Assembly (NCBI RefSeq): GCF_001637325.1
Contig: NZ_LRXL01000037.1
Location: 558,001 to 622,000 of the forward strand
Reading direction: 5' to 3'
Source of the DNA: Cochleicola gelatinilyticus
GTDB lineage: Bacteria; Bacteroidota; Bacteroidia; Flavobacteriales; Flavobacteriaceae
DNA length: 64,000 nucleotides
The translations under genes were made by a program, and so were the position numbers. The notes under the pieces were generated by a model that searched no databases, was not told the DNA's origin, and was given only the letters and a program-made list of their open reading frames with translations. Positions 2,633 to 56,223 of the stretch are shown here, one piece after another; the stretch's first letter is position 1; the number at the start of each line of letters is the position of its first letter.

Positions 2633-3166
2633 TTAATCATATTTCGCACTAATACCTGCTGGGCGAATCCATTTTCCTTGAACTTTTAATACCTGCTCAA
2701 TTACATCACGAACACATCCTTTACCGCCATCCTTATGTGAGATGTATTTTGAAACTCCTTTAATTTCTGGAACAGCATCTTGTGGGCAAACAGGTAAACC
2801 AACCTGCTGCATCACTTCAAAATCGGGAATATCGTCCCCCATATACAATACATTTTCAGGCTTTAGATTATTCGATTTAAAATACGCTGCCAATACTTCT
2901 ACTTTTTGATGGGCTCCTAAATGAATGTCTTTTATTCCCAGTCCGGCAAGACGAACACGAACCCCTTCATTAGATCCTCCCGATATAATGCAAACATTAA
3001 ATCCTTTGTCCATTGCAGTTTTCAAGGCGAATCCATCTTTGGTATGCATGGTGCGATACATTTCTCCTTCAGTGGTGATCGAGATGGTACCATCGGTTAA
3101 AACACCATCCACATCGAAAACAAAAGTGGTAATGTGTTGCAAGTATTCTTTATAGCTTTTTTCCAT
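2633..3166 (-). CDS. kdsC: 3-deoxy-D-manno-octulosonate 8-phosphate phosphatase (KdsC-type HAD)
   Basis: The 177-aa, cap-less HAD phosphatase has motif I FDVDGVLTDG (nucleophile Asp18, acid Asp20), a lysine-containing middle (HQKVE) and motif IV MGDDIPD (Asp111/Asp112). This compact C0-type architecture is typical of KdsC, which releases phosphate from Kdo-8-P to give Kdo for lipopolysaccharide. The next enzyme, KdsB (CMP-Kdo synthetase), is encoded in this window at 53837 as a fusion protein. The gene lies 63 bp after the DUF2520 gene. A more general HAD phosphatase is possible, but length and motif spacing fit KdsC best. Confidence 0.85.
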   Translation of the reverse strand: MEKSYKEYLQHITTFVFDVDGVLTDGTISITTEGEMYRTMHTKDGFALKTAMDKGFNVCIISGGSNEGVRVRLAGLGIKDIHLGAHQKVEVLAAYFKSNNLKPENVLYMGDDIPDFEVMQQVGLPVCPQDAVPEIKGVSKYISHKDGGKGCVRDVIEQVLKVQGKWIRPAGISAKYD

Positions 3167-4080: not shown

Positions 4081-7000
4081 ATGCAAAAGAAGTTAGCTTC
4101 CATTCTGTTCTCCACTCGTTTAACCGCAATTTTGTTCTTAGTATTTGCTGCCGCGATGGCCACGGGAACGCTAATGGATGCATCTTCCGACACTTCACCA
4201 ACTCCATATTCTAGAGAAATGATCTACAATACTTGGTGGTTCGAAGCGATTATGGTTTTTTTCGTGATTAATTTTATTGGAAACATATTTCGTTTCCGAC
4301 TTCATAAAAAAGAAAAGTGGTCCACACTTATTTTGCACCTCTCCTTTATTCTAATTTTAATTGGTGCTTTTGTTACACGTTATATTGGATATGAGGGAGT
4401 AATACATATCAGGGAAGGAGCTACCGAAAATGTGATGCTATCTGAGCAGGTGTATCTCAATGCATTTATAGATGGAGATTATGAGATAGACGGGGTTCCA
4501 CAACGACGTAAGATCGCTCCCAAAAAATTGCGCCTTTCTGAACGACTTAATAACGACTTTTCTATTTCTACCGATTATAATAATGTCCCAGTAACCATTA
4601 GGTATAAGGATTTTATTAAAAATGCTGAAGAGGGGTTAATCATGACCGATGATGGTGAAGAGTATTTAAAAATTGTTGAGGCAGGTGATGGCAATCGCCA
4701 CGACCATTGGATGAAACTTGGTGAGGTCGCCAATATTCATAATATTTTATTTGCAGTAAACAAGCCTACTCCAGGAGCCATTAATATTACCTACAAAGAA
4801 GATGGTAGTTATACTATTGAAGCTCCTTTTGATGGAGATTTTATGAGAATGGCAGACCAAATGCGAGGAACTGTTGTAAAAGATAGCGTACAACCCTTAA
4901 TGCTGCGTTCTTTATATCAATTGGCGGGAATGTCGTTTGTTATTCCAGACCCAGTAACGAAAGGTAAAAATGGAATTGTGCGTGCTGCTAAAGAGAATCC
5001 ATCGAATAAAGATGCACTTATTGTTGATGTAACCGTTGGTGAGGAGACAAAAACTGTAGAACTTTTAGGCGGTAAGGGAGTTTCTCCCGATCCTGTTGGT
5101 GCTGACTTTGGGTCTACAAAAGTATATTTAACATATGGTTCTAAAACATACGATTTGCCGTTTAGCATTACCCTCAATGATTTTATTGCTGAAAAGTATC
5201 CTGGTACCGAAAAAAGTTACAAATCATTTAAGAGTATCGTTACTGTTAATGAGTTGGAAGGAACGGGCACAAAAGATGAAGAGATCTATATGAATCATGT
5301 TTTAGACAGAGACGGATACCGGTTTTTCCAGTCGGGCTTCGATCCAGATGAGAAAGGTACGATCCTCTCAGTTAATCACGATAGAGTGGGAACATGGATC
5401 ACTTATATTGGGTATTTCTTGTTGTATTTCGGGCTTATGGCAATTCTTTTCGACAAACGTTCCCGGTTTGGTACACTTGAGAAAACGTTGAATAAAATTA
5501 AAAAGAAAAAATCTGAACTTACACTGCTAGCAGCACTTATAGTTTCGGTATCCGGCTTTGCTCAAGATGCTAAAGAACACGACCACATTGGTATTACCGA
5601 TAAAACTGTAGTAGATTCTATAATCAAAGCCAATGCGGTGAGTAAAGCTCATGCTGCTGAATTTGCTAAGTTGATCATTCAAGACAACGGTCGTATGAAA
5701 CCGATCAATACCTTTGCTAGTGAATTACTTCGAAAAGTAAGTAAAAGCAATAGTTACGAAGGACTTGATGCGAATCAGGTATTTATTTCCATGACTGAAA
5801 ATCCGCGTTTGTGGTCTCAGGTGCCAATTATTGCTTTAATGCGGGGTAACGATAGTATTAGGGATGTTGTGGGTGTTCCCGCAGAGACAAAACACATTGC
5901 CCTGCTGGATCTTTTCGATACCAAAGCGAATTATAAATTAGAGCCTTATCTGGAAGCTGCTACGAAGACCAATACTCCCAATCAATTTCAGAAAGATTTT
6001 GTGAAAGCTCATGAAAACTATTATTTATTAAATCAGGCACTCAGCGGAAGCATTTTAAAGATTTTTCCTCAGCCTAACGATGAGAACAATAAGTGGGTTT
6101 CGTATCCAGAACTTTCAGAAGCAGCGATAAAGGGTAAAGATTCACTTTTTACAAAGAATATACTTCCTACTTACTTTTTAGTATTGGCTGAAGCTCGAAA
6201 AACTGGAGATTACAGTAGGGCAGAAGAGGTGCTAGGTCTTATTACCGATTTTCAACATAAATACGGGAGTGAAATAATGCCGTCCGATACGAAAATAAAA
6301 GCTGAGATTATTTATAATAAGGTGGATATCTTTAATCGTTTGTATAAGTATTTCTCTGTGGTAGGGATTTTGATGTTTATTTTTATAGTTGTTCAGATCT
6401 TTCGGGAAGGAAAAGTAATGTATAGGTTGGTACAACTGTGTAAATATATTATTTGGTCGTTCTTTATCGCTATGACACTTGGTCTTGCGGCGCGTTGGTA
6501 TATTAGTGGACATGCACCCTGGACCGATGCTTACGAATCGATCATCTATGTTGCATGGGCCACCACCTTTTTCGGACTCGCTTTTGGAAGAAAAAGTGAT
6601 TTGACCATTGCCTCGACAGCATTTGTGGGAGCGATTGTATTGTGGGTTGCTAATCAGAATTGGTTAGACCCAGCTATTTCTACATTGGTGCCAGTACTGG
6701 ACAGTTACTGGTTAATGATTCACGTTGCTGTAATTGTGGGGAGCTACGGACCTCTAACATTAGGTTTAATTTTAGGAGCGACCTCATTATTACTTATGAT
6801 TTTGACTACAAAGGAGAACTTTGTTAAAATGGACTTGAATATAAAGGAACTTACCATTATTACCGAAATGGCTCTTACTGTTGGTTTGGTCATGCTTACT
6901 ATTGGAAACTTTTTAGGAGGACAATGGGCAAATGAAAGTTGGGGACGCTATTGGGGTTGGGATCCTAAAGAGACTTGGGCACTAATTAGTATCATGATTT

Positions 7001-7257
7001 ATGCATTTGTAATACACGCACGTTTGGTTCCAGGACTTCGCGGTAAGTGGCTCTTTAATGTCATGGCCATATTCGCGTATGCATCGATTATGATGACCTA
7101 TTTTGGAGTTAACTTTTACCTTACCGGATTGCATTCTTACGCCAGCGGTGATGTTCCTGTTACTCCAACGTTCGTATATTATCTTATTGCATTTTTTGTA
7201 CTGCTTAGTATCGTATCTTATTTTAGATATAAAAAATATTATATAAAAAAAGGATAG
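4081..7257 (+). CDS. ccsA: Fused cytochrome c biogenesis protein, ResB-like plus CcsA (system II)
   Basis: This is a 1058-aa membrane protein. Residues about 1-470 hold N-terminal membrane segments, a large periplasmic ResB-like part (FQSGFDPD, then GTWITYIGYFLLYFGL) and a further helix. A second periplasmic part follows (about 500-740). The C-terminal 300 residues form the multi-span CcsA domain with the haem-handling motif WGRYWGWDPKETWALI starting at Trp954. System II machines carry haem across the membrane and attach it to CxxCH of apocytochromes c; fusion of both halves is common in Bacteroidota. It stands alone, with a -7 promoter upstream and a hairpin overlapping its stop codon. Confidence 0.93.
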   Translation: MQKKLASILFSTRLTAILFLVFAAAMATGTLMDASSDTSPTPYSREMIYNTWWFEAIMVFFVINFIGNIFRFRLHKKEKWSTLILHLSFILILIGAFVTRYIGYEGVIHIREGATENVMLSEQVYLNAFIDGDYEIDGVPQRRKIAPKKLRLSERLNNDFSISTDYNNVPVTIRYKDFIKNAEEGLIMTDDGEEYLKIVEAGDGNRHDHWMKLGEVANIHNILFAVNKPTPGAINITYKEDGSYTIEAPFDGDFMRMADQMRGTVVKDSVQPLMLRSLYQLAGMSFVIPDPVTKGKNGIVRAAKENPSNKDALIVDVTVGEETKTVELLGGKGVSPDPVGADFGSTKVYLTYGSKTYDLPFSITLNDFIAEKYPGTEKSYKSFKSIVTVNELEGTGTKDEEIYMNHVLDRDGYRFFQSGFDPDEKGTILSVNHDRVGTWITYIGYFLLYFGLMAILFDKRSRFGTLEKTLNKIKKKKSELTLLAALIVSVSGFAQDAKEHDHIGITDKTVVDSIIKANAVSKAHAAEFAKLIIQDNGRMKPINTFASELLRKVSKSNSYEGLDANQVFISMTENPRLWSQVPIIALMRGNDSIRDVVGVPAETKHIALLDLFDTKANYKLEPYLEAATKTNTPNQFQKDFVKAHENYYLLNQALSGSILKIFPQPNDENNKWVSYPELSEAAIKGKDSLFTKNILPTYFLVLAEARKTGDYSRAEEVLGLITDFQHKYGSEIMPSDTKIKAEIIYNKVDIFNRLYKYFSVVGILMFIFIVVQIFREGKVMYRLVQLCKYIIWSFFIAMTLGLAARWYISGHAPWTDAYESIIYVAWATTFFGLAFGRKSDLTIASTAFVGAIVLWVANQNWLDPAISTLVPVLDSYWLMIHVAVIVGSYGPLTLGLILGATSLLLMILTTKENFVKMDLNIKELTIITEMALTVGLVMLTIGNFLGGQWANESWGRYWGWDPKETWALISIMIYAFVIHARLVPGLRGKWLFNVMAIFAYASIMMTYFGVNFYLTGLHSYASGDVPVTPTFVYYLIAFFVLLSIVSYFRYKKYYIKKG

Positions 7258-51727: not shown

Positions 51728-53152
51728 ATGGATGTACCACATTTTTATAGCCTTTTAAAATCTGACTTCCCATTTAACACAACTGCAAAACAAGACATTA
51801 CGCTTCAATTATTAGCTGCTTTTGTCTTGAATGATGTAGCAAATGAGACCTTTTTACTAAAAGGTTATGCGGGTACTGGAAAAACAACAATTGTAGGAAC
51901 CCTAGTGAAAAACCTCTGGAAAGTAAAACAATCACCTGTTTTATTAGCCCCTACGGGTAGAGCAGCTAAGGTAATTAGTAATTATTCTAACAAGGAAGCG
52001 TTTACAATTCATAAGAAAATATATTTCCCAAAAGGAGAAAAGGGAGGTGGTGTTTCGTTCACACTTCAGAAAAACAAGCATAGAAATACAATATTTATCG
52101 TCGATGAAGCTTCTATGATCCCGGATATTAATCAAGACGCAAAACTATTTGAGAATGGTTCATTACTAGATGACCTTATGGAATACGTATATTCTGGACA
52201 CAATTGTAAATTATTACTTATAGGAGATACTGCACAATTGCCTCCTATAAAATTAGATATTAGTCCAGCTCTAGATGCCCGAACGCTCGAAAATCATTAT
52301 AATAAAGAGGTTGTTTCTATAGAGCTCGATGAAGTAGTGCGGCAAGAAAGAGAAAGTGGTATTCTTATAAATGCTACTAAATTAAGAGAACATCTTGACG
52401 AGGGCTTTTACGACACGTTTAAGTTTTCTGAACTACCTTATACAGATGTAATTCGCCCGTTAGATGGCAACGAGTTGTTAGAAGCAATTAGCGATTCGTA
52501 TCACCAACTAGGAAACGAAGACACCGTAATTATTGTTAGATCTAATAAAAGAGCCAATCTGTACAATCAGAACATTCGTAATCGTATTCTATTTCAAGAA
52601 GAAGAATTGGCTGCAGGAGATTATCTAATGGTGGTAAAAAACAATTATTTCTGGGTAAAAACTACCAGTGAAGCTGGGTTTATTGCCAATGGTGATATTA
52701 TAAAAATTTTAGAGATCTTCGGAATTAAAGAGCTCTACGGATTTAAATTTGCTGAAGTACAAGTACAAATGGTGGATTATCCAGATATGAAGCCGTTTGA
52801 AACAGTATTACTTTTAGATACTCTTACTTCGGAAACACCTTCGCTGCCGTATGAAGATTCCAACCGTTTGTATCAAGAAGTGATGAAAGATTACGCAGAT
52901 GAAAAATCAAAATATAAAAAGTTCATGGCGGTAAAAAAGAACAAATACTTTAATGCGCTACAAGTAAAATTCTCATACGCTATTACGTGTCATAAATCTC
53001 AAGGAGGACAATGGAATACCGTTTTTGTTGAGCAGCCTTATTTACCTAACGGAATCGATAAAGAATACTTAAGGTGGTTGTATACAGCCATTACCCGAGC
53101 AAAAGAAAAATTATACCTCATTGGTTTTAAGAATGAGTTTTTTGTAGATTAG
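51728..53152 (+). CDS. RecD/Pif1-like superfamily 1B helicase
   Basis: The 474-aa protein has Walker A GYAGTGKTT (46-54), Walker B IVDEASM, motif III GDTAQLPPI, NKRANLYN (motif IV-like), the UvrD-C-terminal region YAITCHKSQGGQWNTVFV and motif VI YTAITRAKEKLYLIGF. It lacks the long N-terminal part of RecD2 and has no RecB/RecC neighbours. Compact AAA-type helicases of this kind occur in Bacteroidota, and a role in 5'-3' unwinding or repair is inferred. It is followed immediately by the DUF4126 gene (start 5 bp after its stop). Confidence 0.88.
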   Translation: MDVPHFYSLLKSDFPFNTTAKQDITLQLLAAFVLNDVANETFLLKGYAGTGKTTIVGTLVKNLWKVKQSPVLLAPTGRAAKVISNYSNKEAFTIHKKIYFPKGEKGGGVSFTLQKNKHRNTIFIVDEASMIPDINQDAKLFENGSLLDDLMEYVYSGHNCKLLLIGDTAQLPPIKLDISPALDARTLENHYNKEVVSIELDEVVRQERESGILINATKLREHLDEGFYDTFKFSELPYTDVIRPLDGNELLEAISDSYHQLGNEDTVIIVRSNKRANLYNQNIRNRILFQEEELAAGDYLMVVKNNYFWVKTTSEAGFIANGDIIKILEIFGIKELYGFKFAEVQVQMVDYPDMKPFETVLLLDTLTSETPSLPYEDSNRLYQEVMKDYADEKSKYKKFMAVKKNKYFNALQVKFSYAITCHKSQGGQWNTVFVEQPYLPNGIDKEYLRWLYTAITRAKEKLYLIGFKNEFFVD

Positions 53153-53157
53153 TGGCA

Positions 53158-53736
53158 ATGGATACCTTTTCAGTTTTAATCAGTTTATTTTTAGGCATTG
53201 GTCTTGCGGCTTCTGCAGGTTTTCGAGTGTTTCTTCCTTTACTTGCTTTAAGCATTGCTGGATATTACGAATACATTCCGCTAACGGAAAATTGGGAATG
53301 GATAGGAAGTTTAACAGCAATTATTACTTTAGCTGCTGCCACATTCCTTGAAATATTCGGGTACTACATTCCATGGTTCGATAATTTATTAGATACGATT
53401 GCCTTACCATTAGCAACGGTAGCGGGCACTATTGTTATAGTAGCGACTGTTGCCGATATGGATCCAGTTGTAACCTGGGCTTTGGCCATTATCGCTGGAG
53501 GGGGTACTGCATCAGCAATAAAAGGGAATGCAGCGGCATTACGGGTAGGGTCGACCGCAACAACTGGTGGTATTGCAAACCCTTTAGTAACAACTGTAGA
53601 AACAGGAACTGCAACGATTATGTCTGTTGCATCAATTTTTATACCCATAGTCGCATTTATAGTTGTACTTCTATTATTTTATGGAATCTTTAGATTTTAT
53701 AAAAAGCTTCGGAAAAAGCCATCGCCACGTCCTTGA
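53158..53736 (+). CDS. DUF4126 membrane protein
   Basis: The start is ATG 53158 (MDTFSVLISLFLGIGLAASAGFRVFLPLLALS); a GTG 6 bp upstream overlaps the helicase stop. The 192-aa protein has about five membrane helices with Gly/Ala-rich, transporter-like sequence (GIGLAASAGFRVFLPLL, GGGTASAIKGNAAALRVGSTATTGG). This matches DUF4126, a family of unknown role. The small-residue repeats suggest tight helix packing and possibly a channel. It ends in a basic cytoplasmic tail. Confidence 0.82.
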   Translation: MDTFSVLISLFLGIGLAASAGFRVFLPLLALSIAGYYEYIPLTENWEWIGSLTAIITLAAATFLEIFGYYIPWFDNLLDTIALPLATVAGTIVIVATVADMDPVVTWALAIIAGGGTASAIKGNAAALRVGSTATTGGIANPLVTTVETGTATIMSVASIFIPIVAFIVVLLLFYGIFRFYKKLRKKPSPRP

Positions 53737-53836: not shown

Positions 53837-55669
53837 ATGAAAATAATAGCTATGATTCCCGCGCGTTACGGCGCATCGAGATTTCCCGGAAAATTAATGC
53901 AAGACCTTGGTGGTAAGACAGTTATTGTGCGTACCTATGAGGCTGCAAAAGCAACCGAACTTTTTGATGAAGTGTATGTGGTAACCGATAGTGACGTAAT
54001 TTTTCAAGAAATAGAAATGAATGGGGGAAAAGCAATCATGAGCGTAAAAACACATGATTGTGGAAGTGATCGTATTGCAGAAGCGGTCGAAAATATGGAT
54101 GTTGATATTGTGGTGAATGTTCAAGGGGACGAACCTTTTACTAGTAAGGAAGGTTTAGAGCAGGTGTTGCGTGTCTTTGATGGTCCAGACGCAGAAAAGA
54201 TTGATCTTGCTTCACTAATGACCGAAATTCACGACTGGAAGGAGATTAGCGACCCTAACTGTGTAAAAGTGATAGTAGATAAAGATAATTTTGCACAGTA
54301 TTTTTCACGCTCTCCAATTCCATATCCAAGAGATAAAAATGCTGCAGTTCAATACTATAAACATAAAGGGATTTACGCTTTTAGAAAACAAGCAATTTTA
54401 GATTTCTATAGATTACCAATGCGATCTTTGGAAGCTGCAGAAAAGATTGAATGCATTCGGTATTTAGAATATGGTAAAAATATTAAAATGGCAATATCAA
54501 ACACACAAGGAATAGAAATAGATACGCCAGAAGATCTAGTGCGTGCGAATAAAATATTAAAAGAAGAAAAAAGAGAAACGGTTAATAATAAATACAGAAA
54601 TTTTCCAATGGTGCCAAAAGTGGTATTCGGACAGGGAAGTTTCGACCAACTTTCTTCAATCTTAAACCCACAACGAAAAGATAAAGCTCCTTTTATATTC
54701 TTAGTGGATGACGTTTTTAAAGAGAATAAAATCTTTGTCGATCGTATAAACTTGAGGTTTAATGATAAATTAATTTTTATCTCAGCAGACGAAGAGCCAA
54801 AAACATCTCAAGTAGATCAGATTGTTAAAGAGATTAAAGAAGAGTTTACCTATAAACCTTCGGGAATTGTTGGTGTTGGTGGAGGCACAATTCTAGACTT
54901 GACCAAAGCTGTAGCAATTATGTTAACTAATAAGGGAAGTGCTTCCGACTATCAAGGTTGGGATCTCGTTAAAACTAAGGCGGTTTATCATGTTGGAGTT
55001 CCAACAATCTCAGGTACTGGTGCAGAAGTGTCGAGAACTACGGTTCTTACAGGACCCGTTAGAAAACTAGGGATTAATAGTGATTTTACACCATTCGATC
55101 AAGTTATCTTAGACCCAAATCTAACGATAGGTGTTCCTAAAAATCAATGGTTTTACACGGGAATGGATTGCTTTATTCATTGTGTTGAATCTTTAAACGG
55201 AACTTTTTTAAATGCCTTTAGTCAAAGCTATGGTGAGAAAGCATACGATCTCTGTATGGAAATATTTTTAGAAGATGAAAATCTATCTGAAGAAGAATCA
55301 AGAGGAAAATTAATGATGGCTTCATGGCACGGAGGAATGAGCATCGCGTACTCTCAAGTTGGTGTCGCACATGCTATGAGTTATGGACTTTCTTATGTAT
55401 TAGGAACTAAGCACGGTATTGGAAACTGCATCGTTTTCGATCATTTAGAAGAATTTTACCCTAAAGATGTTGCATTGTTTAAAAAGATGGTCGACAAATT
55501 TAATATTACAATACCAAAAGGACTCTGTAGTAATCTTACCGAAAATCAAATAAATACGATGATCGATATCGCCCTTAGTCTTGTCCCCCTTTGGGAGAAT
55601 GCCTTAGGAGATAATTGGGAAACTATTATGACTCGTGATAAATTGAAACAGCTATATTTAAAAATGTAA
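53837..55669 (+). CDS. kdsB: Fusion of CMP-Kdo synthetase (KdsB) with a KdnB-like iron alcohol dehydrogenase
   Basis: One 610-aa ORF has two complete enzymes. Residues 1-243 are Kds[34 protein letters not shown] and [11 protein letters not shown] short Lys/Glu linker (about 243-256) leads to a group-III iron-containing dehydrogenase: [14 protein letters not shown] (348-361), [12 protein letters not shown], the metal region [14 protein letters not shown] (442-455) and TKHGIGN. KdnB in Shewanella oxidises Kdo at C8 as the first step to 8-amino-Kdo, so the fusion joins oxidation and CMP activation. No kdnA-type aminotransferase is in the window. There is no stop or frameshift at the junction. 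Confidence 0.85.
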
Positions 55670-55686
55670 TTGGATAATTACATTAT

Positions 55687-56223
55687 ATGGGCTTCACAAA
55701 ATTTTTATATACTACAGTCTTTGGTTGGAAAATCAACGGTGATTTTGATCGTGCTATAAAGCGGTCTGTATTAATTTGTGCGCCTCATACCAGTTATCAA
55801 GATTTTCTTATTTCGATTGCGGCAAGAAGAATCTTAAAAGTGGAGATTAACTTTGTTGGGAAAAAAGAATTATTTACCGGTGCTTTTGGATGGTTCTTTA
55901 AATGGATGGGGGGAGCACCGTTAAATCGGGGTACTTCAGAAAATAAAGTTGAAGCTATTTCAAAAGTAATTCAAGCACACGATGAGTTTCGACTTGCAAT
56001 CGCTCCCGAAGGAACCCGAAATAAAGTTGAGAAGTGGAAAACCGGATACTATTATATCGCTATTTCTGCAAATGTTCCAATTATTCCTATAGGTTTCGAT
56101 TATCCAAATAAAACAATTCATATCGGGAGCGCATTCTACCCAACAGGAAACATTCAAAACGACGAAAACACCTTGAAAAGTTTCTATAAAGGAATCATCG
56201 GAAAATTTCCCGATAAATGTTAA
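55687..56223 (+). CDS. 1-acyl-sn-glycerol-3-phosphate acyltransferase-like protein
   Basis: The 178-aa PlsC-like protein has the catalytic HX4D motif (His34-TSYQ-Asp39), GAPLNRGTSENKV, and the glycerophosphate motif PEGTR (Glu108-Arg111), then YYIAISANVPIIPIGFDY. This short form, starting with WKINGDFD, is a common Bacteroidota variant of the lysophospholipid acyltransferase superfamily; the acceptor could be lysophosphatidate or another lipid. It follows the KdsB-KdnB fusion by 17 bp, so it may be part of a lipid or LPS operon. Confidence 0.85.
   Translation: MGFTKFLYTTVFGWKINGDFDRAIKRSVLICAPHTSYQDFLISIAARRILKVEINFVGKKELFTGAFGWFFKWMGGAPLNRGTSENKVEAISKVIQAHDEFRLAIAPEGTRNKVEKWKTGYYYIAISANVPIIPIGFDYPNKTIHIGSAFYPTGNIQNDENTLKSFYKGIIGKFPDKC

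Follow-up and report, generated by a model that had tools for sequence, protein, structure and literature searches.

The window that we analysed, a stretch of 64,000 nucleotides from the flavobacterium Cochleicola gelatinilyticus, holds at positions 53837 to 55669 of its forward strand an open reading frame of 610 aa that runs from ATG to TAA with no internal stop and joins a CMP-Kdo synthetase (KdsB) to an iron-type dehydrogenase. Kdo is the sugar through which the core is attached to lipid A in the outer membranes of most Gram-negative bacteria. The sequence-only reading had described a single polypeptide without stop or frameshift, and the domain matches agree with it; Pfam places CTP_transf_3 (PF02348) at residues 4–216 (E 1.9e-46), Fe-ADH at 261–427 (1.5e-25) and ADH_Fe_C at 440–543 (8.5e-13), the KdsB domain scores 262.1 bits against a cut-off of 193 for the NCBIfam family NF003952, and residues 2–247 match the CMP-Kdo synthetase 1gq9 among PDB sequences (3.1e-46). 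Because KdsB homology stops near residues 242–244 and KdnB homology begins at 252, the linker comes to about 8–10 residues, shorter than the figure of about 13 first given for it. A predicted model of the fused protein recovers both folds, with target-normalised TM scores of 0.93 to 5k8c and 0.86 to 1h6j (Foldseek); since the model is of moderate quality (28 sequences, mean pLDDT 72.2, pTM 0.54), it is used for fold comparison alone and not for domain arrangement. The features discussed below are collected in Table 1.

Table 1. Positions in the window of the fused gene, its domains, its key residues and related genes
Feature	Position	Strand	Evidence
Fused kdsB-kdnB gene, 610 aa	53837..55669	+	Single ORF; fused in 77/80 related loci and 17/149 genera
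KdsB domain, residues 1-242, cytidylyltransferase	53837..54562	+	PF02348; NF003952; PDB 1gq9, 3.1e-46
KdsB D98, predicted Mg ligand (A. aeolicus D95)	54128..54130	+	Invariant in 28 fused proteins; PMC3149649, PMC2901514
KdsB E227 (E. coli Gly233), proposed 8-amino selector	54515..54517	+	Covariation with KdnAB
KdsB D229, predicted Mg ligand (E. coli Asp235, A. aeolicus D219)	54521..54523	+	Invariant; PMC3149649, PMC2901514
Linker, residues 243-251	54563..54589	+	Varies among relatives; pLDDT <50 at 243-260
KdnB domain, residues 252-610, predicted Kdo 8-oxidase	54590..55666	+	PDB matches; tree; Foldseek 5k8c target TM 0.93
KdnB D444, predicted metal ligand	55166..55168	+	Aligned with FucO and 5k8c; invariant
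KdnB H448, predicted metal ligand	55178..55180	+	Aligned with FucO and 5k8c; invariant
KdnB H512, predicted metal ligand	55370..55372	+	Aligned with FucO and 5k8c; invariant
KdnB H526, predicted metal ligand	55412..55414	+	Aligned with FucO and 5k8c; invariant
PlsC-type acyltransferase, 178 aa, directly downstream of the fusion	55687..56223	+	PF01553; 52/52 fused loci >20 kb
DUF4126 protein, upstream of the fusion	53152-53736	+	30/52 long fused loci
KdsC-type Kdo-8-phosphate phosphatase, earlier Kdo step	2633..3166	-	TIGR01670, 131.8 bits, cut-off 106.95

A stop, frameshift or assembly error at the joint is ruled out, because the same fusion is found in frame in relatives of many genera. Among the best 80 of 350 relatives, a choice that biases the set towards fused genes, 77 loci carry both domains in one open frame; in the remaining three, kdsB and kdnB are separate, adjacent and in the same frame, the gap being a single stop in L082 and L083 and a few codons in L090. 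Titles in this set include Ulvibacter, Altibacter, Aequorivita, Aureisphaera, Marixanthomonas, Gilvibacter and Aquimarina, among others, or give only Flavobacteriaceae or a broader label. The domain order, which was to be sought in relatives, also recurs in an even draw of one genome per genus, with a full-length match in one open frame in 17 of 149 Flavobacteriaceae genera; in a further genus (G126) the match spans both domains with a stop, leaving two adjacent genes. Across a phylum sample of 345 genomes, 24 have a KdnB match, and a frame long enough for the fusion occurs only in the window's genome. On these comparisons we regard the fusion as a confirmed, conserved joining of two known enzymes. 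Apparent open frames of about 840–945 aa in the 149-genus sample, candidates for a larger fusion, were taken as an effect of joined matches; the only one translated (G116) has many stops between its parts, and the ORF lists of L094–L098, L110 and L112 contain separate genes.

The second domain had been assigned to KdnB by motif, and sequence, tree and fold all bear this out. Residues 252–608 match two PDB sequences, 3rf7 (from Shewanella denitrificans by its title; 4.4e-133, 448 bits) and the KdnB of S. oneidensis, 5k8c (9.4e-129, 434 bits), which is annotated as 3-deoxy-alpha-D-manno-octulosonate 8-oxidase, whereas the next iron-type dehydrogenase in the PDB reaches only 2.1e-23 and 86 bits. 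Identity is 54.8% to 5k8c and 18.3% to FucO. A tree was the test set by the sequence-only reading; in ours, of 45 rows, a starred branch of support 100 groups the window's domain with the KdnBs of flavobacteria, with both from Shewanella and with the more distant ones of Bacteroidota, against an outgroup of three iron-type dehydrogenases of E. coli, FucO, EutG and YiaY. These three share with the KdnB half the fold and the Asp/His/His/His metal site, but they carry the second His of the AH..AH motif where the window's protein and both Shewanella KdnBs have Tyr. D444, H448, H512 and H526 are unchanged across 28 fused proteins and occupy positions that we take to be the metal ligands of the iron-type dehydrogenase family. 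Sequence clade, predicted metal ligands and fold support the C-terminal half as KdnB, a predicted Kdo 8-oxidase, and a passage of PMC5125639 describes KdnB as the characterised member of dehydrogenase group cd08184. That this half is instead an ordinary iron-type alcohol dehydrogenase for some other alcohol, its fusion unrelated to Kdo, is scarcely credible: Pfam and NCBIfam do give the broad family only, with no equivalog cut-off reached, but the gap in bit scores, the single clade with KdnB, the attachment to KdsB and the co-occurrence with KdnA all speak against it.

The partner enzyme KdnA had been called missing. It is indeed absent from the window, but it is encoded in the genome, where a search for a kdnA gene of the DegT/DnrJ type returned 11 DegT-family matches with a single KdnA-like one among them (L006:1477-2688; 403 aa; contig C36 260986-262194). 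This protein matches S. oneidensis KdnA, 5k8b, over residues 1–395 (1e-150, 53.4% identity) and conserves the PLP lysine, Lys186; the three other strong DegT enzymes of the genome reach 28–35% identity to 5k8b over shorter stretches. The fused gene starts at C36 611837, which puts about 350 kb of that contig between it and kdnA. As for the remaining steps, a KdsB search of the genome gives one strong match, the fused protein (one other covers 57 residues at 2.7e-5), a KdsC-type gene lies within the window, though under the KdsC equivalog cut-off NF007019 (135.6 of 208), and a Kdo transferase gene (PF04413) is present in the genome, below equivalog cut-offs. Searches of plasmids for KdnA and KdnB, and of viral contigs for KdnA, returned no match. 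Both enzymes of the S. oneidensis pathway (5k8b, 5k8c) are represented here at 53–55% identity with catalytic residues conserved; the differences from Shewanella are that KdsB and KdnB form one chain, that KdnA is unlinked and that the host is a flavobacterium. Shewanella has a kdnA-kdsB-kdnB cluster, and clusters in some Bacteroidota resemble that arrangement (kdnA-kdsB-kdnB in L100, L101, L120 and L125; kdnA-kdsB-HAD-kdnB in L099).

KdnA and KdnB travel together. At thresholds of E ≤ 1e-80 for KdnA and E ≤ 1e-40 for KdnB, the 149 Flavobacteriaceae genera divide into 111 with both, 36 with neither, 2 with KdnB only and none with KdnA only, i.e. 111 with KdnA and 113 with KdnB (Fisher p 1.5e-32, relatedness ignored). 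Neither exception has an ordinary KdnB; in G083 the KdnB match covers residue 103 onwards only, with KdnA in fragments alongside, and in G130 a KdnB-like gene (L116:5643-6722, minus strand) in the normal operon place has two of its four metal ligands replaced and sits on a long branch; its genome lacks KdnA at E ≤ 1e-80 and its KdsB carries Gly, an apparent joint decay of the pathway. In other words, intact KdnB never occurs without KdnA in this family sample. KdnA was likewise found in all 50 genomes tested from the 80 named loci. The phylum sample (345 genomes; KdnB ≤ 1e-60, KdnA ≤ 1e-80) yielded KdnB in 24 and KdnA in 22, the unpaired cases being KdnB in G130, G285 and G309 and KdnA in G272. 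A second KdnAB type was seen in L121, L122, L123, L124, L207 and L210, where kdnA lies close to kdnB; KdnBs of this type are 46–48% identical to the window's and 51–55% to that of S. oneidensis.

We hypothesize, and hold it likely, that the fused gene encodes a bifunctional Kdo 8-oxidase/CMP-8-amino-Kdo synthetase within a complete pathway to 8-amino-3,8-dideoxy-manno-octulosonic acid (Kdo8N), the fusion having come about by loss of intervening genes. The KdnB half would oxidise free Kdo at C8 to the aldehyde, the separate KdnA would convert the aldehyde to Kdo8N, and the KdsB half would turn Kdo8N into CMP-Kdo8N for the Kdo transferase; E227, beside the Mg site, would recognise the 8-ammonium group, and the fusion would hold the enzymes of the first and last steps in a 1:1 ratio and may keep the aldehyde close. 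From the domains, the conserved catalytic residues, the KdnA gene in the genome, the co-occurrence, the covariation of E227 and the operon comparison we infer the substrates, the order of steps and the role of E227. With the other pathway genes also present in this genome, Kdo8N is probably produced by these marine flavobacteria as well.

Two routes had been suggested for the fused enzyme, and they fare differently. The route from Kdo through 8-oxo-Kdo and Kdo8N to CMP-Kdo8N is favoured, because intact KdnB never occurs without KdnA in the family and because KdsB bears a KdnAB-linked residue beside its metal site. The other route has the KdnB half oxidise CMP-Kdo made by the KdsB half, with activation first and transamination on the nucleotide sugar. 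The fusion itself fits either order, but we consider CMP-Kdo oxidation quite improbable: residue 227, which tracks KdnAB as set out below, fits a KdsB that sees the modified sugar; CMP-Kdo is short-lived; and in Shewanella KdnB reportedly oxidises Kdo with a metal and O2, KdnA aminates and activation comes last, a 2013 JBC paper being said to have placed the conversion of Kdo before its activation.

What, then, ties KdsB to KdnAB? The KdsB half has the fold of the E. coli and A. aeolicus enzymes and retains its cytidylyltransferase domain with both predicted Mg-ligand aspartates (Pfam, NCBIfam, PDB match, alignment), which are shared with those enzymes; passages of PMC2901514 and PMC3149649 assign the catalytic Mg to E. 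coli Asp235 and A. aeolicus D219, respectively. E227 lies two residues before the Mg-binding Asp, in the segment that follows the Kdo-binding domain and precedes the final part of the CTP-binding domain. E. coli KdsB has Gly at this place, two residues before Asp235, whereas the fused protein has Glu and a KdnB domain attached. Position 227 is Glu in all 110 KdsBs (107 different sequences) from loci with KdnB, of which KdnA was confirmed for 30 through the family and phylum samples and for 50 through the named genomes, the other 30 being classed on KdnB alone. In 28 KdsBs of KdnAB-negative genera it is Gly in 25, Glu in 2 (G019 and G100) and Ser in 1; these are the genera, among 38 that are KdnA-negative, that were returned as loci, with the two decayed ones apart (G083 and G130, both Gly) and with 7 weaker or missing KdsBs and second, weaker KdsB copies left out. 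No other of the 244 columns discriminates as well (overlap 0.07 against 0.21 for the next). Glu is also present in all 20 further unfused loci of KdnA-positive genera and in 79 of 79 members of the tree set beside the window. Outside the family, all 7 genomes that carry the close KdnAB type have Glu (5 of these belong to the 110 as well), and none of 37 KdsB rows of KdnAB-negative genomes does; the negatives were an arbitrary pick of 46 genomes (of the 60 searched, 11 gave no KdsB match, and 3 of the rows listed were left out). The four KdsB rows of G285 and G309 have Gly or Ala. E227 thus covaries with KdnAB; in KdnAB-negative genomes the residue is, with few exceptions, Gly, Ser or Ala.

These patterns lead us to read this KdsB as tuned to Kdo8N, which would place oxidation and amination before activation. 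Glu is not required in every case: Cys (3) or Ser (1) stands at 227 in four Bacteroidota genomes of the distant KdnAB type, though their KdnBs are as close to S. oneidensis KdnB (51–55%) as the window's. That exception, together with the kinship of most Glu-bearing KdsBs and the Glu kept by G019 and G100 without KdnAB, would suit a different view, in which E227 merely marks a lineage of related KdsBs and selects no substrate. We nevertheless find the lineage view rather unlikely, given that position 227 is the best of 244 columns and given the history of the residue. In a 129-row KdsB tree built without column 227, in which 55 of 124 inner branches have weak support and a number of long branches are flagged, the KdnAB label takes 11 changes and Glu 10; counted by eye, the best tree has 8 KdnAB-negative lineages nested among Glu-bearing ones, 7 of them without Glu, the eighth being G019/G100. 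Confined to starred branches, the tree offers 4 independent pairs, 3.6 agreeing on average and none opposite (p 0.125, where fewer than 6 pairs cannot reach 0.05).

The gene neighbourhood offers an account of how the fusion may have arisen. We compared the fused loci with 19 unfused family loci (L094–L112), hand-picked from the 149-genus sample and thus non-random. The unfused operon, kdsB-HAD-(CAT-like)-kdnB-plsC, contains orthologous kdsB and kdnB and usually has the same flanking AAA helicase and PlsC genes, and often DUF4126, as the fused loci, where, among the 52 longer than 20 kb, PlsC is found in 52, the AAA helicase in 50 and DUF4126 in 30. In 15 of the 19, kdsB and kdnB are separated by a HAD hydrolase gene (PF00702; e.g. 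L094:4277-4981, minus strand), and a CAT-like acetyltransferase gene occurs in 6 (L102, L103, L105 at 4875-5492 on the plus strand, L108, L109 and L112; matched by PF00302 in L105, L109 and L112). Neither gene was found in any of the 77 fused loci, and the best HAD homologue that the window's genome offers has 28% identity. Several KdnAB-negative genera present the converse arrangement, in which kdnB is absent from the interval from kdsB (or HAD/CAT) to plsC; the HAD gene adjoins kdsB in several KdnAB-negative genera. A separate observation is that plsC is kept beside kdsB with or without KdnAB. The operon HAD gene was considered as a Kdo-8-phosphate phosphatase and is unlikely to be one, because the window has a separate KdsC-type gene and the HAD protein weakly matches other HAD groups. 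No kdnA was found within about 10 kb of the fusion in the 52 fused loci longer than 20 kb.

We propose that the fusion arose, probably once, through loss of whatever gene or genes separated kdsB from kdnB in an ancestral flavobacterial operon. A combined KdsB and KdnB tree (24 fused and 28 unfused rows) puts all fused proteins in one group of 26 rows with support 83, which also holds L082 and L083, the pair whose frames are split by a single in-frame stop; one fused clade without these two is not rejected (p-AU 0.13), and on the KdsB-only tree fusion state needs 2 changes. The simplest history would be one fusion and one later re-split in L082/L083, with two fusions possible.

Whether the fusion brings any benefit is a closer call. 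KdsB and KdnB are separate chains in 94 of the 111 KdnAB genera, so the fusion is dispensable for the chemistry, and the channelling suggested at the outset can for the same reason be offered as a hypothesis only. Indeed, we give close to even standing to the view that the protein functions in Kdo8N synthesis as proposed and that its fusion is a near-neutral product of gene loss without channelling or regulatory benefit. The prevalence of unfused genes fits this view, as do the apparent re-splitting of L082 and L083 by an in-frame stop with both genes kept and a linker that varies in length and sequence; the persistence of the fusion across many genera argues the other way.

Kdo8N is called a hallmark of Shewanella species in passages of PMC6357163 and PMC3210612; PMC6357163 gives its C8 resonance as near 44–45 ppm. 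A passage of PMC4052302 mentions it in "other bacterial species", two of the three references given there being Shewanella papers, and a core structure of Arenibacter certesii has been published (cited in parts of PMC3210612 and PMC4052302). We saw no earlier report of a kdsB-kdnB fusion or of flavobacterial Kdo8N among the papers listed in searches of the open-access literature, a scope outside which most subscription journals fall. The fusion alone is of modest novelty; the breadth of the predicted flavobacterial Kdo8N pathway and the KdsB site add more. If the prediction is true, the inner core of many genera in this large and often marine family would contain a positively charged sugar, which would affect surface charge, cationic-peptide resistance and host recognition. 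The Glu/Gly site of KdsB would represent a one-residue handle on substrate choice, and the fusion would be a compact enzyme with two activities for the production of CMP-Kdo8N. A bolder joint claim, which we put forward tentatively as somewhat more doubtful than probable, is that about three quarters of Flavobacteriaceae genera normally use Kdo8N as the sugar attached to lipid A, that a single Gly-to-Glu change beside the KdsB Mg site switches the enzyme from Kdo to Kdo8N, and that in one lineage the fused oxidase-synthetase, with KdnA docked, passes on the reactive 8-aldehyde without release, all outer-membrane Kdo being aminated.

Relatives of these enzymes appear in other settings as well. 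The distant KdnBs of G285 and G309 (42–43%; L117:5565-6677 and L118:5729-6841, both on the minus strand), which occur without KdnA at E ≤ 1e-80, probably serve a different sugar; the domains read in L117 (G285) place its KdnB in a NeuB-type cluster, near NeuB, a cytidylyltransferase and DUF4910, and the L117 and L118 enzymes perhaps carry out terminal oxidation of a nonulosonic acid. In L119, a KdnA homologue (38%; 6041-7210, minus strand) adjoins a cytidylyltransferase gene near an ordinary iron-type dehydrogenase and is possibly involved in amination of another sugar acid. Lastly, the CAT-like enzyme of the unfused operons might add an acyl group to Kdo8N or to some other amine of the LPS; G019 and G067, both without kdnB, have a more distant CAT-like gene (36–37%; L242, L245).
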